A stretch of DNA of 64,000 nt from Phycisphaeraceae bacterium (GTDB lineage Bacteria; Planctomycetota; Phycisphaerae; Phycisphaerales; Zrk34). Shown piece by piece: positions 15,443 through 26,217 of the stretch. Below the pieces are notes generated by a model. That model saw nothing but the letters and a program-made list of their open reading frames with translations, was not told where the DNA came from and made no database searches. The DNA is taken from NCBI GenBank assembly GCA_028282685.1, contig JANQHK010000154.1, positions 1-64,000 of the forward strand. The letters run 5' to 3'. Positions within the stretch are counted from its first letter, which is position 1; the number at the start of each line of letters is the position of its first letter. A program made the translations under genes and the position numbers.

Positions 15443-17290
15443 TCACTTCTGCGGCAACGGCGGCAGCGCCTCTTCCAACACGTTGCGCGCTTTGGGCCAG
15501 GCGAGCACCGCTTCAACGATCAACCAAAGCTGCAACAACGAGATCAATGCGCTGAAAACCAGCAGGTGCCATTTCTCGTTCGGTATGAAATCCGTCACGG
15601 TCTGGTGCGCCATCGCCCAACCGGGCACGATGAGCATGATCGCCATCGGAATGGCGGTAAGCCATGCGGGCAAGCCGCGACGCCAGAGGTAGAAACTGAT
15701 CACCATCAGCGCCAGGCCAGCCAGGAGCTGGTTGGTGGCGCCGAACAGAGGCCAGAGGATCAATCCGCCCGAGCCGGGCCCGAGCTTGCCGGGTATCATC
15801 GCCACGATGCCGCCGGTGGCCAGGGCGACCGCCGTGGCGGCGAACTTGTTCGTCAGCGGACGAATGGACATGCTTTTACCAAGTTCTTGCACCACGTAAC
15901 GTTGCAATCGTGTGGCGGTATCGAGTGTGGTGGCGGCGAACGATGCGACCAGCACGGCCATGATGGCGATGGCCATTTTCAGCGGTATCCCGATCGAGCC
16001 CAGGAAATTCCCTCCGCCTTCGATAAACGCGCCCACCTTGTTGGCCAGTTTGAAGTCGGACCAGCTCTTCTCGGGGTTGTACACCGAAGCCCACGCGGCG
16101 GGGCCGACCAGGGCCTGTCCGCTTTCGTCCACCGCATGCACGTAATCGAAACCACCGGGCGCGGTGGCCAGGGCCGTGCGGTTAAATTTGCCCATCGCCA
16201 ATCCCGCACAGCAGGCGAGAATGACCACCGTCGCCAGCGCCCCTTCCAGCAGCATGCCGCCGTATCCCACGTATCGGGAATGCGTTTCGCAGGACAATTG
16301 CTTGCTGGAGGTTCCACTGGCGACCAGGCAGTGGAATCCGCTGATCGCCCCGCAGGCAATCGTGATGAACAGGAAGGGCAGTATCGGCGGTGCATCGGCG
16401 GGGACATCGGCGCTGATTGCCGGGGCAGCGGTAAACAGGTTCGCCTGTCCGTTCATCCCCGCCACCAGCAAGCCACCCACCAGCAGCACCAGCGCCAGAA
16501 CCAGCTCGTGACTGTTAATGAAATCGCGCGGCTGTAACAACGTCCACACCGGCAGCACCGAGGCGAAGAAACAGTAGACCAGGAGAATCACGGTCCAGAT
16601 CTGGATGGCGCGCGGCAAGGTGTTCCCAGACACCTCGATCCCGAACCAGGTGCGGATGTCGACCGGCAGGTGGTAGCTGCCGACGTACATCATCAGGTAC
16701 ATCGCACCCAGGGCGGCAAGAGAAGGCCACAGCAGCCCTCCTTTTTTCTTGTACACCCAGAATCCGATCAATATCGCCAGGGGGATTTCCACCCACACGC
16801 TCAACACGCTCTCGGGGTAGAGTGAAAAGATGATGGCGATCACCAATCCGAAGATGGCGATCACGATCATCAGCGCGAAGAAGAGGATGGCCAGAAACAG
16901 GTATCTGGCGCGTGGGCTGATCATTCGGCCGGCGATCTCGCCGACGCTCTGACCGCGATTGCGCACGGAGATGACCAGCGAGCCGAAGTCGTGCACGGCG
17001 CCGATGAAGATCGACCCGAAGACAACCCACAACAGCGCCGGCAGCCATCCCCAGAACACGGCGATCGCCGGTCCGACAATCGGGCCGGTCCCCGCGATGC
17101 TGGTGAAGTGGTGGCCGAAGACCACCTCCTTCTTGCTGGGCACGAAATCGACATTGTCGCGCAGTTGTCGGCTGGGCATGGCGGCCTGGGGGTCAAGCCG
17201 GAATAACTTCCGCCCCAGCCAGCGCCCGTAGGTGTGATAGGCGACGATAAAACCGACGAATGCGCCAATGGCGACCAACAGCGTGGACAT
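15443..17290 (-). CDS. cstA: Carbon starvation protein CstA family transporter
   Basis: 615-residue inner-membrane protein with about 16 hydrophobic segments. The CstA signature region near the N-terminus is intact (GHHFTSIAGTGPIVGPAIAVFWGWLPALLW, GAVHDFGSLVISVRNRGQS). Family members import pyruvate or peptides under starvation. It is shorter than E. coli CstA/BtsT (about 700 aa), mainly through fewer C-terminal loops, as in many non-enteric members. The ATG is at 17290; no two-component partner is adjacent. The upstream lipoprotein gene ends 72 bp before it on the same strand. Confidence 0.93.
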   Translation of the reverse strand: MSTLLVAIGAFVGFIVAYHTYGRWLGRKLFRLDPQAAMPSRQLRDNVDFVPSKKEVVFGHHFTSIAGTGPIVGPAIAVFWGWLPALLWVVFGSIFIGAVHDFGSLVISVRNRGQSVGEIAGRMISPRARYLFLAILFFALMIVIAIFGLVIAIIFSLYPESVLSVWVEIPLAILIGFWVYKKKGGLLWPSLAALGAMYLMMYVGSYHLPVDIRTWFGIEVSGNTLPRAIQIWTVILLVYCFFASVLPVWTLLQPRDFINSHELVLALVLLVGGLLVAGMNGQANLFTAAPAISADVPADAPPILPFLFITIACGAISGFHCLVASGTSSKQLSCETHSRYVGYGGMLLEGALATVVILACCAGLAMGKFNRTALATAPGGFDYVHAVDESGQALVGPAAWASVYNPEKSWSDFKLANKVGAFIEGGGNFLGSIGIPLKMAIAIMAVLVASFAATTLDTATRLQRYVVQELGKSMSIRPLTNKFAATAVALATGGIVAMIPGKLGPGSGGLILWPLFGATNQLLAGLALMVISFYLWRRGLPAWLTAIPMAIMLIVPGWAMAHQTVTDFIPNEKWHLLVFSALISLLQLWLIVEAVLAWPKARNVLEEALPPLPQK

Positions 17291-22915: not shown

Positions 22916-24985
22916 TTAATCGTCCTCTTCCTTCGGTTTGAACGCGGCGATCAGTTGCTGCTGGACGTTCGGCGGCACCGCATCGTAGTGGCTCAGTTCC
23001 ATGGAGTAGGAGCCCTGCCCGCCGGTCACGGAGTTAAGCTGCGACTGGTAGTTGCCCAGTTCGGCCAGCGGGGCCTGGGCCTTGATGACGATCATCCCGC
23101 CGGGGATGTTTTCCTGGCCCTGGATTCCACCGCGTTTCGAGGACAGGTCGCCGGCGATGTCGCCCATATTCTGATCGGGCACGGTAATTTCGAGGTTAAC
23201 GATCGGCTCGAGGATGGCGGGCCGGGCCTCGGACACCACCTTCTTCATGCAATTGCGCGTCGCGGTGACGAACGCCACTTCCTTCGAGTCCACCGGGTGG
23301 TACTTTCCGTCGTAGACCGACACGCGAATGTCCTGCATCGGATACCCGGCAATGGCGCCTTCGCCCATGATCTGCTTGACGCCCTTTTCGATGGCAGGGA
23401 TGAACTGGCCGGGGATGGCGCCGCCGAAAATGTCGTTGACGAATTCAAGTCCGTTCCCGCCGTTGATCTTACGGAACTCCGAATCCTCGGGCAGGGGGGA
23501 GATTTTCAGGTGCACTTCACCGAACTGCCCTGCGCCGCCGGACTGTTTCTTATGGCGGTATTGGGCCGAGGCCTCGCCCTGGACGGTCTCGCAATACGCG
23601 ATGCGCGGCGGCTTGGTGTCCACTTCCACGTTGTACCGATTCTTCATCTTGTCCAGGATCACACGCATGTGCAGATCACCCAAGCCGCGAATCACCGTCT
23701 CGCCCGTGCCCGGCCGCTCAATCTTGAAGCAGGGGTCCTCGGCGTCGATGGCGGCCAGGGCCTTGGCGATTTTCTGCTCGTCGCCGCGGCTCTTGGCGGT
23801 GATCGCCAGGCCGTGCATTGGCTGCGGGAAGGCGATGGGCTTGAGGCGGATGCCGGCTTCGTCGGCCGAATCGTGCAACACGGCGTCGAAGTCGATCTCC
23901 TCCACTTTCGCCACGGCGCAGATATCGCCGGGGATGCCCGCGTTGGTTTCCTTGTGGTCCTTGCCTTGCAGCTTGAACAGGTGACCGACCTTGAAGGGTT
24001 TTTTGGCGTCATTGATGTAGAGCTGGGTGTCCTTGGTGATGGTGCCCTGGTGGATGCGGAACACGCCCAGCCGACCGACAAACGGGTCGATCGCCACCTT
24101 GAACACATGCGCCAGTGCATGTCCCGACGGATCGGGCTGCGGGACGAATGTCTCGGCGCCTTCGCCGGAGTCCTTGATGAACGGGCGGGGGTTGCCCTCC
24201 TTGGGGCTGGGTGCAAAGTGCGCAAAGAAGTCGGCCAGTTCCTTCACACCCGCGCCGGTCCTCGCCGAGCAGAACAGGATCGGAATCAGGTGCCCTTCGC
24301 GCAGGGCCTGCTCGAACACGTTGTGAATCTGCTCCTTGCTCAGCTCCTCGCCCTCGAGGTAGAGCATGGCCAGTTCTTCATCGACTTCGACCACCTGGTC
24401 GAGGATGGCGGTGTGCGCCGACTCAACGTCGGAGAAATCGACTTCGCCCTCGGCCTTGTTGAACACGTCCACCACGCCGGCGCCGCCGCCGGACGGCAGG
24501 TTGAACGGTTTGCACGCCGGTCCGAACGATTCCTGCAATTGATTGACCACGCCGGGCAGGTCGATGTTGTCGGCGTCGATCTTGTTGATGACGATGCAGC
24601 GGGGCAATTGACGCTGCTCAGCGCGTTCCATGATGCGGCGCGTGATCATCTCGATGCCGGACTGGGCGTTGACCACGACGGCCACGGTTTCCACGGCCGG
24701 CAGCGCGCCCAGGGCATGGCCGAAAAAGTCCGGTGCGCCGGGGGTGTCGATCAGGTTGATGTGCGCGCCGCCGTGATCGAGCGAGCAGATCGCCGCGTAC
24801 AGCGAGTGCTGACGTTCCTTTTCCTGATCGTCGAAGTCGCTGACGGTCGAACCCTTTTCGGTTGCGCCGATTTGCGGGATCACGCCGGCAGCGTGGAGCA
24901 GGGCGTCGGTGAGGATGGTCTTCCCCGCCCCGGCGTGACCGGTCAGGGCGATATTGCGGATTTGTTCGGTGGTGTAAGCGGACAT
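22916..24985 (-). CDS. fusA: Elongation factor G-like translation GTPase (paralogue type)
   Basis: 689 residues with all EF-G domains. G1 is GHAGAGKT, G3 DTPG, G4 NKID, and domains II-V follow (HVFKVAIDPFVGRLGVFRIHQG, RVILDKMKNRYNVEV, GAIPGQFIPAIEKGVKQIM). The sequence is closer to the EF-G-like paralogues than to the canonical translocase; no rpsL/rpsG/tuf genes are nearby, also against the main fusA. It may act in recycling or translocation on stalled ribosomes. Start 24985 has GGAGGT upstream. It lies downstream of an unusual structured leader with a mini-ORF and terminator. Confidence 0.9.
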   Translation of the reverse strand: MSAYTTEQIRNIALTGHAGAGKTILTDALLHAAGVIPQIGATEKGSTVSDFDDQEKERQHSLYAAICSLDHGGAHINLIDTPGAPDFFGHALGALPAVETVAVVVNAQSGIEMITRRIMERAEQRQLPRCIVINKIDADNIDLPGVVNQLQESFGPACKPFNLPSGGGAGVVDVFNKAEGEVDFSDVESAHTAILDQVVEVDEELAMLYLEGEELSKEQIHNVFEQALREGHLIPILFCSARTGAGVKELADFFAHFAPSPKEGNPRPFIKDSGEGAETFVPQPDPSGHALAHVFKVAIDPFVGRLGVFRIHQGTITKDTQLYINDAKKPFKVGHLFKLQGKDHKETNAGIPGDICAVAKVEEIDFDAVLHDSADEAGIRLKPIAFPQPMHGLAITAKSRGDEQKIAKALAAIDAEDPCFKIERPGTGETVIRGLGDLHMRVILDKMKNRYNVEVDTKPPRIAYCETVQGEASAQYRHKKQSGGAGQFGEVHLKISPLPEDSEFRKINGGNGLEFVNDIFGGAIPGQFIPAIEKGVKQIMGEGAIAGYPMQDIRVSVYDGKYHPVDSKEVAFVTATRNCMKKVVSEARPAILEPIVNLEITVPDQNMGDIAGDLSSKRGGIQGQENIPGGMIVIKAQAPLAELGNYQSQLNSVTGGQGSYSMELSHYDAVPPNVQQQLIAAFKPKEEDD

Positions 24986-25143: not shown

Positions 25144-25182
25144 GTAAAAAACAGCCCGCGCCGGGGTTTAGCCGACGCGGGC
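25144..25182 (-). terminator. Intrinsic terminator in the leader of the EF-G-like gene
   Basis: Minus strand: GCCCGCG and CGCGGGC form a 7-bp stem around a 15-nt loop, followed by TGTTTTTTA. It lies about 160 bp before the EF-G-like start codon and 52 bp past the mini-ORF stop. Confidence 0.75.
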
Positions 25183-25234
25183 AACACGTTGTCGTTGGGG
25201 ACGGGCTGCGGATCAGGCAGTTCCGTCAAGCTGC

Positions 25235-25267
25235 CTAGATCAGCAGCCCACCTATACAGTTAGACAC
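25235..25267 (-). CDS. Ten-codon leader ORF with extreme Shine-Dalgarno site
   Basis: GTG start at 25267 and TAG stop at 25235-25237 encode MSNCIGGLLI. Directly upstream and overlapping the first base, AGAAAGGAGGTGATCCAG (25267-25284, minus) complements 18 nt of the canonical bacterial 16S rRNA 3' end, with 7 nt between GGAGG and GTG. Codons 7-9 form one arm of a GGGCTGC/GCAGCCC hairpin, so translation would disrupt it. No homologous peptide is known to me; translation is inferred. Confidence 0.45.
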   Translation of the reverse strand: MSNCIGGLLI

Positions 25268-25548
25268 TGGATCACCTCCTTTCTAAGAGCATTTTCCAGC
25301 CGTCGCCCGCTCGTAGCGGTCGGGCCCAACACCCGTATCCGCCACCGGGCCGCCGGACTCTTTTCGCCCGGCAACGTCTTGCCGGGCCCATCGCCCCTCA
25401 GCGAGGTGATTGCCGATGGGCGGTCGGGGTGGCCGATGCGCCGGTCTTGCGGGTTGGCCGCGTAGGACGCATCGGTTGGCGCCGACATTCATATTTTTCG
25501 GTATGACCGACCCACCGTCAATGAAAAAATGACAAATTCTCCGTGCGT

Positions 25549-26217
25549 TCAGGGGATCGCTTCGGGCGCGATTTGAGCGAATTCGTCGCGCCCCTGCACG
25601 TGGTAATACCACGTGGTGCGGACGACGACCCACCCCAGGGCCGCGGCAACGAAGATATCCGATGCAAAATGAGCGCCGGCCAACACGCGCGTCGCCCCGC
25701 ACCCCAGCGCCAGGGCAATCCAGACCACCGATGCACGCGGATAAATATGGCACAGCATCAGGCAGGCGCCGAACGCCACGGCCGTATGGCTGGATGGCAT
25801 CGCCAGGCCCGAACTGCTGAATGTGTCCTCCAGCCAGGGGCGCACCACCGTGCACCCATCCACCTCCCCGGGGCGCACCCGCCGTGCAATGATCTTGAAC
25901 AGCTCGGCCAGTCCCGCCGTACCCCCCATGCCGATCAGCAGCAGGATCGAGCGCGTCCACGAGCGCCAGTTGAGCTTCGGCCAGTAACGCGTATCGACCA
26001 GCGCCATGGCCGCGGCCGCGATCAGCCACGTCGGCGCCCAACCCATGATGCGCAAAAAGCGAGACCAGTCGCGCTCGCGGTCCCGGTACTGCTGTGCCGC
26101 CAGGTACACCTCGCGGTCGAAGTAGAGCAACACCGCCAGAACGATGGCGAACAACGCCACAAACCCTCCCACGCGCAACAGACTGAACTGTCGATGTCGG
26201 GGACGGGCTTCAGTCAT
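25549..26217 (-). CDS. PAP2 superfamily membrane phosphatase
   Basis: 222-residue inner-membrane protein with five or six hydrophobic helices and the three phosphatase motifs: KIIARRVRP, PSSHTAVA and RVLAGAHFASD. Likely substrates are lipid phosphates such as undecaprenyl pyrophosphate or phosphatidate derivatives, with the active site facing the periplasm. Its start overlaps the stop of the upstream GT39 gene by 8 nt, so the two are co-transcribed, which suggests work on lipid-linked sugars. Confidence 0.9.
   Translation of the reverse strand: MTEARPRHRQFSLLRVGGFVALFAIVLAVLLYFDREVYLAAQQYRDRERDWSRFLRIMGWAPTWLIAAAAMALVDTRYWPKLNWRSWTRSILLLIGMGGTAGLAELFKIIARRVRPGEVDGCTVVRPWLEDTFSSSGLAMPSSHTAVAFGACLMLCHIYPRASVVWIALALGCGATRVLAGAHFASDIFVAAALGWVVVRTTWYYHVQGRDEFAQIAPEAIP

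Follow-up and report, generated by a model that had tools for sequence, protein, structure and literature searches.

The window analysed here is a stretch of 64 kb (64,000 nucleotides) in which a PAP2-like gene, ending at position 25549, is separated from the ATG (24985) of a gene for an EF-G paralogue (22916-24985, minus strand) by a gap of 563 bp (25548-24986). The original prediction placed a multi-helix leader with a possible promoter, an embedded mini-ORF, and an intrinsic terminator in this gap. The coordinates of the gap could be confirmed, as could the helices, a promoter-like site, a mini-ORF, and the terminator. All features of the RNA described below are encoded on the minus strand. 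A sigma-70-type promoter-like site (25521-25493) consists of TTGACG (25521-25516), a 17-nt spacer, and AAAAAT (25498-25493), which would place the transcription start near 25486. The intrinsic terminator (25182-25147; GCCCGCGTCGGCTAAACCCCGGCGCGGGC TGTTTTTT) has a hairpin of 11 pairs (25182-25154) followed by TGTTTTTTAC. Promoter, structured RNA (about 340 nt), and terminator all fit within positions 25521-25146. Two promoter-like sites were observed versus 0.3 in shuffled sequences, and two terminator-like sites versus 0.7.

The predicted stand-alone transcript (25486-25146, about 340 nt) is bounded by the conserved promoter and terminator and folds with a z-score of -4.45; stability beyond chance was also obtained for 25144-25521 (z = -4.71) and for 25144-25290 (z = -4.51). 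Relative to the Shine-Dalgarno (SD) sequence described below, the promoter-like TTGACG-17-AAAAAT of the window is located at -242. Sites of the type TTGACN/TTGCCT-16/17-GATAAT are found at -212 to -264 in genomes G001, G005, G006, G008, and several other relatives, while a clear promoter-like site upstream of the SD is absent in some of the relatives inspected. At the terminator position, most relatives have a GC hairpin followed by a T-run.

The EF-G paralogue is a second EF-G besides a more distant homologue (G000:C81, 34% identical), and both kinds were matched in most relatives searched. It had been proposed that the RNA is a leader which ties the expression of this gene to ribosome status, acting as a transcription attenuator. 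Such a role is suggested by its position, the terminator, the mini-ORF, and a sequence able to pair with the terminator arm, but orthologues of the EF-G paralogue (49%-70% identity) occur in 14 of 14 relatives searched and are adjacent to the RNA in none of them. In G001, a distance of 5.7 kb separates the orthologue from the RNA, and the two are encoded on opposite strands, while the orthologues of the other genomes are distant or on another contig; an extended SD was not found within 500 nt upstream of the orthologues from these 14 relatives. The EF-G gene has a separate promoter-like site (TTGCGA-16-TATACT, 25087-25060, minus strand) downstream of the terminator of the RNA, and a TATACT/TATAAT box is found at a similar place before the same-family orthologues of G001, G003, G005, G006, G007, and G008. 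The sequence GCGGGC (25310-25305), interpreted as an antiterminator, can indeed pair with the terminator arm in the window, but this mutually exclusive pairing is not kept in relatives (e.g., locus L003 has GCGCGG, with the arm still being GCCCGC). We consider the attenuator reading largely refuted and thus very improbable. The suspected connection to ribosomes, detached from EF-G, is still plausible because of the 16S rRNA complement described below.

Neighbouring genes of the RNA differ by lineage. The PAP2 gene is an upstream neighbour common to G007 and G008. Among Alphaproteobacteria, which carry a shorter analogue of the Phycisphaerae RNA, the next gene is on the same strand in 29 cases and on the opposite strand in 32 when Rhodobacteraceae are set aside (genes were called with a simple script based on ORFs and codon bias). 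Given that it has its own terminator and promoter-like site, the absence of linkage to EF-G, and the lineage-dependent neighbours, the RNA from Phycisphaerae is most likely an independent gene. This corrects a natural misreading, namely that the conserved structure belongs to the EF-G gene.

The centre of the RNA is an element that had gone unnoticed in the original prediction. Positions 25287-25267 (CTTAGAAAGGAGGTGATCCAG) form an extended SD, which over 21 nt perfectly complements the 3' tail of 16S rRNA. The searches made did not reveal a 16S copy in the genome bin of the window itself, and the 16S rRNA from genome G001, which is from the same family, was therefore taken as reference; its 3' end is CTGGATCACCTCCTTTCTAAGGG, ending with CCTGCGGCTGGATCACCTCCTTTCTAAGGG, and its identity as 16S is confirmed by a match to RF00177. 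All 21 nt are paired with zero mismatches, the pairing extends well beyond the GGAGG core, and the last base of the complement is the first G of a GTG start codon. On the 16S side, the match ends at what we take to be the base of helix 45, so that essentially the entire free tail is covered. With -32.8 kcal/mol, this duplex is by far the strongest in the 64-kb window. The runner-up (-23.2 kcal/mol) is AGAAGGAGGTGGTCTTCG at position 17133 on the minus strand. We rejected a fragment or antisense copy of a 16S gene as the origin of the element, since neither the flanks nor the ORF, the structure, or the terminator have any relation to 16S, and since the 16S copies of relatives gave separate matches of 21 nt.

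The GTG opens a mini-ORF of 10 codons (25267-25235; GTG TCT AAC TGT ATA GGT GGG CTG CTG ATC TAG, coding for MSNCIGGLLI), with its stop codon inside a conserved hairpin. This is the ORF which is conserved; the ORF list of the window also contains a 78-codon ATG ORF at 25488-25252. Relatives from Phycisphaerae mostly have an ORF of 9-13 codons at this site, with insertions in multiples of three. Their start codon is GTG, with ATG or TTG in some, and their stop codons (TAG, TAA, or TGA) interchange at a fixed place. In Rhodobacteraceae, every one of 42 distinct ORFs has 18 codons (24 with TAG, 10 with TAA, 8 with TGA); this length was used to choose the set, the members of which are unmistakably homologous.

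A gene for a small protein, with the RNA as a strongly translated mRNA, the peptide (MSNCIGGLLI and its relatives) as the product, and the structure merely controlling translation, would account for the very strong SD, for an ORF that is intact in nearly all relatives, and for peptides which look conserved within alphaproteobacterial groups. The peptides are, however, wholly different between lineages. In the 42 ORFs from Rhodobacteraceae, codon positions 1, 2, and 3 vary equally (0.84, 0.79, and 0.78 bits), and amino-acid-level selection was not detectable, as column shuffles had substitutions that were just as conservative (56 of 300 shuffles being as high); this substitution test lends no support to the peptide as the main product. 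Since ORF length and stop codon are kept without detectable selection on the peptide, it looks as if the act of translation is conserved rather than the peptide, with the selection test covering Rhodobacteraceae only. Peptides from Phycisphaerae share a DC(T/I)-x-GL core, so that the peptide could matter in this group, but the GL codons are explained by the base-paired stem which they occupy. On balance, we regard a small-protein gene as unlikely.

The fold of the RNA is conserved, and its core covaries strongly within the class Phycisphaerae. An RNAalifold consensus from 19 Phycisphaerae sequences has 34 pairs, with compensatory changes in 24 of them. Its elements are a hairpin with a GACG cap, the helix P2 (TCCGGC/GCYGGA), which encloses a variable inner stem, and the hairpin of the stop codon (GGGCTGC/GCAGCCC). 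In an alignment of 43 sequences, 94.5% of the cells are paired, compared to 76.5% upon shuffling and at most 50% with partners slid, and 230 double-sided changes contrast with 66 in shuffles; double-sided changes affect 28 of the 34 pairs, and none of 500 shuffles reached any of the observed measures. As the 43 sequences were aligned by fitting them to the model, this alignment leans towards it, a bias from which the MAFFT-based count of 24/34 is free.

Hairpin H1 (25386-25367) has the sequence CCCGGCAA-GACG-TTGCCGGG, and its conserved tetraloop GACG is nearly invariant; all 8 pairs have double-sided changes, and 98% of the cells are paired. The P3/P2 domain (25362-25285), in which P2 and the inner stem covary, ends adjoining the SD. 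It is formed by AAGAG (25362-25358) and TCCGGC (25357-25352), the variable inner stem, and then GCTGGA (25300-25295) and CTCTT (25289-25285). For the P3 helix (e.g., GAAAGAG with CTCTTTC, located immediately 5' of the SD), the own partner beats mispaired ones, with none of 20,000 shuffles being as good, a result which relatedness of the sequences can inflate. In the stop-codon hairpin (25249-25203), GGGCTGC (25249-25243) pairs with GCAGCCC (25209-25203) around an inner GACG-capped hairpin; its 9 + 3 pairs all show double-sided changes (12/12).

Two competing folds around the SD with similar energies are predicted for the window, at -44.2 kcal/mol with the SD hidden and at -40.6 kcal/mol with the SD free. 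Strand 25300-25285 has two possible partners, namely 25362-25352, in which case the SD is free, and the SD itself. Compared to shuffled linkers, pairing between linker and SD is better in the window (p = 0.007) and in about half of 19 relatives; in L006, L034, and L159, it is no better than shuffled. A universal SD-hiding switch is thus only partly supported. Fold-controlled access to the SD is a reasonable inference.

The distribution of the element was analysed by two routes. The exact 18-mer AAAGGAGGTGATCCAGTG is found in 16 of 101 relatives, while the reversed control pattern gave no match. Among GTDB species genomes, at least 117 stretches contain it, and the matches listed are mostly from Alphaproteobacteria and Planctomycetota, with single cases from Krumholzibacteriia, Myxococcales, Lujinxingiaceae, Deltaproteobacteria, Nitrosomonadales, and SAR92/Cellvibrionales. 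All matches listed have a GTG ORF at the equivalent place, and nearly all of these ORFs are short. Some of the single-lineage matches may have arisen by chance (e.g., L066, with a 57-codon ORF resembling a signal peptide). Because the seed pattern biases such a scan, a covariance model (R1) built from the 19-sequence consensus was used as the second route, and this model has matches in 63 of 198 Phycisphaerae genomes from many families. The SD is mostly still extended in these matches, and the extended-SD motif was not found by a simple search in several of 30 model-found loci. Variants are AAGGAGGTGATTCA-TTG (L186), AAAGGAGGTGATCC-ATG (L207), GGAGGTGATCC-GTG (L212), and AAAGGAGGTGGTCCA-GTG (L192), showing that start codon and spacing vary while initiation is kept.

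The statement that no known RNA family fits was nearly right. The sole sensible Rfam match is CC2171 (RF01867), a family from Alphaproteobacteria with no assigned function, which aligns to 25291-25153 with 25.3 bits, far below the gathering cut-off of 75; the best score among relatives is 37 bits. The cut-off is passed by the tested loci from Methylobacterium, Bosea, and Brevundimonas and is not reached by Rhodobacteraceae-type, Bradyrhizobium, and Devosia loci. In both CC2171 and the Phycisphaerae RNA, an identical stretch of 22 nt (GAAAGGAGGUGAUCCAGUGUCU) precedes a GUG mini-ORF, after which come a hairpin and a terminator, and CC2171 is an independent gene, as the Phycisphaerae RNA appears to be. 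The 5' GAAAGGAGGUGAUCCAG of CC2171 followed by a GUG ORF is present in the window, whereas CC2171 is devoid of the long 5' structured domain. For the window sequence alone, the cmscan alignment does not show the long-range helix CAUUGUC/GACAAUG that CC2171 has by the terminator. Because 17 of the 22 identical nucleotides are dictated by 16S complementarity, common descent is unproven, and we classify the RNA from Phycisphaerae as a variant that is CC2171-like, without counting it as a family member. A description of the 16S complementarity of CC2171 was not found in the literature searched, outside of which lies Landt et al. 2008, reportedly the original report on this family.

The likeness to CC2171 is also relevant for the possibility that the RNA is an ordinary trans-acting sRNA which pairs with mRNAs via other parts, the SD and mini-ORF being a secondary dual function. 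It has its own promoter-like site and terminator, CC2171 is filed as an sRNA in Caulobacter, a 215-nt CC2171 transcript has been detected by RNA-seq in Mesorhizobium huakuii (PMC5596092), and the conserved GACG loops could be contact sites. Yet conservation is highest in the 16S complement, the target of which is already accounted for, and besides the SD, no conserved unpaired seed stands out in the core alignment. We therefore judge this possibility to be rather unlikely.

Certain neighbours of the alphaproteobacterial analogue have products related to translation. In Rhodobacteraceae loci (L038-L154), the analogue is flanked by a gene resembling a queuosine precursor transporter and, for most of the loci, by a same-strand gene for an ArfB-like GGQ ribosome-rescue protein on the other side (identification was by eye from sequence, and the homologues clustered in 40 and 36 loci). 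An RNase R-like gene adjoins the RNA in L049, L051, L071, and L113 (Bosea and a Methylobacterium-labelled MAG), and a divergent RF3/EF-G-like gene in Microvirga (L097, L112, L121, L133). We rejected a consistent association with translation-related neighbours (ArfB-like, RNase R, RF3/EF-G-like, EF-G paralogue), as each case looks like single-lineage synteny. Another idea is that 16S rRNA itself is the substrate of the RNA, which might, for example, guide or check 3'-end maturation or 30S decay, with the ORF reading out the finished tail. The complement spans the whole tail and a few nucleotides beyond the usual mature end, as would be expected for such a role, but the conserved start and stop codons are left unexplained, and neighbours like RNase R (Bosea) are confined to one lineage. 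We consider this idea quite improbable.

Our preferred reading, to which we assign a probability of about 0.45, is that of a structured RNA with a length of about 340 nt which is transcribed on its own, the working part of which is the full complement of the 16S tail before a very short ORF. The best guess is that the RNA was built to catch ribosomes or to sense 30S subunits and is not an EF-G control region. Its anatomy is well supported and comprises the fold, the 16S complementarity, an ORF with interchangeable start and stop codons, the promoter-like site, the terminator, and the lack of linkage to EF-G; that it works by engaging 30S subunits is what we infer from this anatomy. The fold would set access to the SD, with strand 25300-25285 pairing upstream or with the SD, and pairing along the whole 16S tail would capture a 30S subunit. 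The ribosome would then make a throw-away peptide of about 10 residues and terminate inside the 3' hairpin. The likely output would be the sensing or soaking up of free 30S subunits, or of those with an unusually exposed tail, such as in bS21-poor ribosomes.

There is a precedent for the latter. The exceptionally strong SD of rpsU in Flavobacterium selects ribosomes without bS21 (PMC9976891), and a short bS21 accompanies extended SD helices in Staphylococcus aureus (PMC13009471), from which we propose that the RNA might sense or sequester 30S subunits that are free or poor in bS21. The rpsU mRNA of Flavobacteriales shares the exceptionally strong SD and is preferentially read by a ribosome subpopulation, but it codes for a protein (bS21), whereas the Phycisphaerae RNA stands alone and has a throw-away ORF. 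The extended-SD mRNAs from S. aureus share the extension of the SD-aSD helix towards the start codon, but are ordinary protein mRNAs with shorter extensions. Attenuator-derived sRNAs of the rnTrpL/peTrpL type (PMC7298713) have a leader peptide, that is encoded by a short ORF, together with a hairpin, a terminator, and a small RNA product; differing from these, the RNA described here lacks a conserved downstream operon, and the 16S complement takes the place of regulatory codons. The RNA resembles tmRNA (RF00023) in being structured, having a length of about 350 nt, and carrying a reading frame of about 10 codons, but differs in that its ORF is equipped with a start codon and an SD. A tmRNA was rejected because the locus has no RF00023 match and a separate tmRNA is encoded in the same genome (G000:C37, 171 bits).

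It is conceivable, though we hold this only tentatively, that there is a phylum-crossing class of ribosome-dedicated RNAs in which a complement of the entire 16S tail, exposed or hidden by the fold, captures 30S subunits onto a disposable ORF that is translated up to a fixed stop, so that free or altered 30S subunits are measured or their pool is buffered. In this class, CC2171 would represent the Alphaproteobacteria, and the RNA from Phycisphaerae would be a branch that is larger and structured. If true, several phyla would have kept a dedicated RNA which pairs with the complete 16S tail, the translation of which is an end in itself and which reports directly on the state of the 30S pool; the orphan family CC2171 would gain a testable function, and a new way of regulating ribosomes would emerge.

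Some observations concern individual groups. Phycisphaerae of family f2 (L006, L026, L027, L034, L035, L107) have an extra conserved hairpin (CGACGACCG...CGGGCGATG) before H1, and a gene for a metal-type ABC transporter permease is located upstream of the RNA. Loci from the Bradyrhizobium group (L067, L073, L079, L080, L092, L102, L103, L120, L136, L137) have a near-invariant ORF (MSxxKRCHLAGIAR), within which the codons CACCTCGCTGGGATC look like parts of the 16S tail (CACCTCC, CTGGATC). Because of this resemblance, the peptide may be conserved for the sake of the RNA. Pieces resembling the 16S tail are also found inside the RNA in other alphaproteobacterial versions. A CNCCTCC-like piece is present in 36 of 42 Rhodobacteraceae, where 1.1 would be expected, and 32 of 41 versions from the MSHC group contain CTGGA, where the expectation is 5.6.
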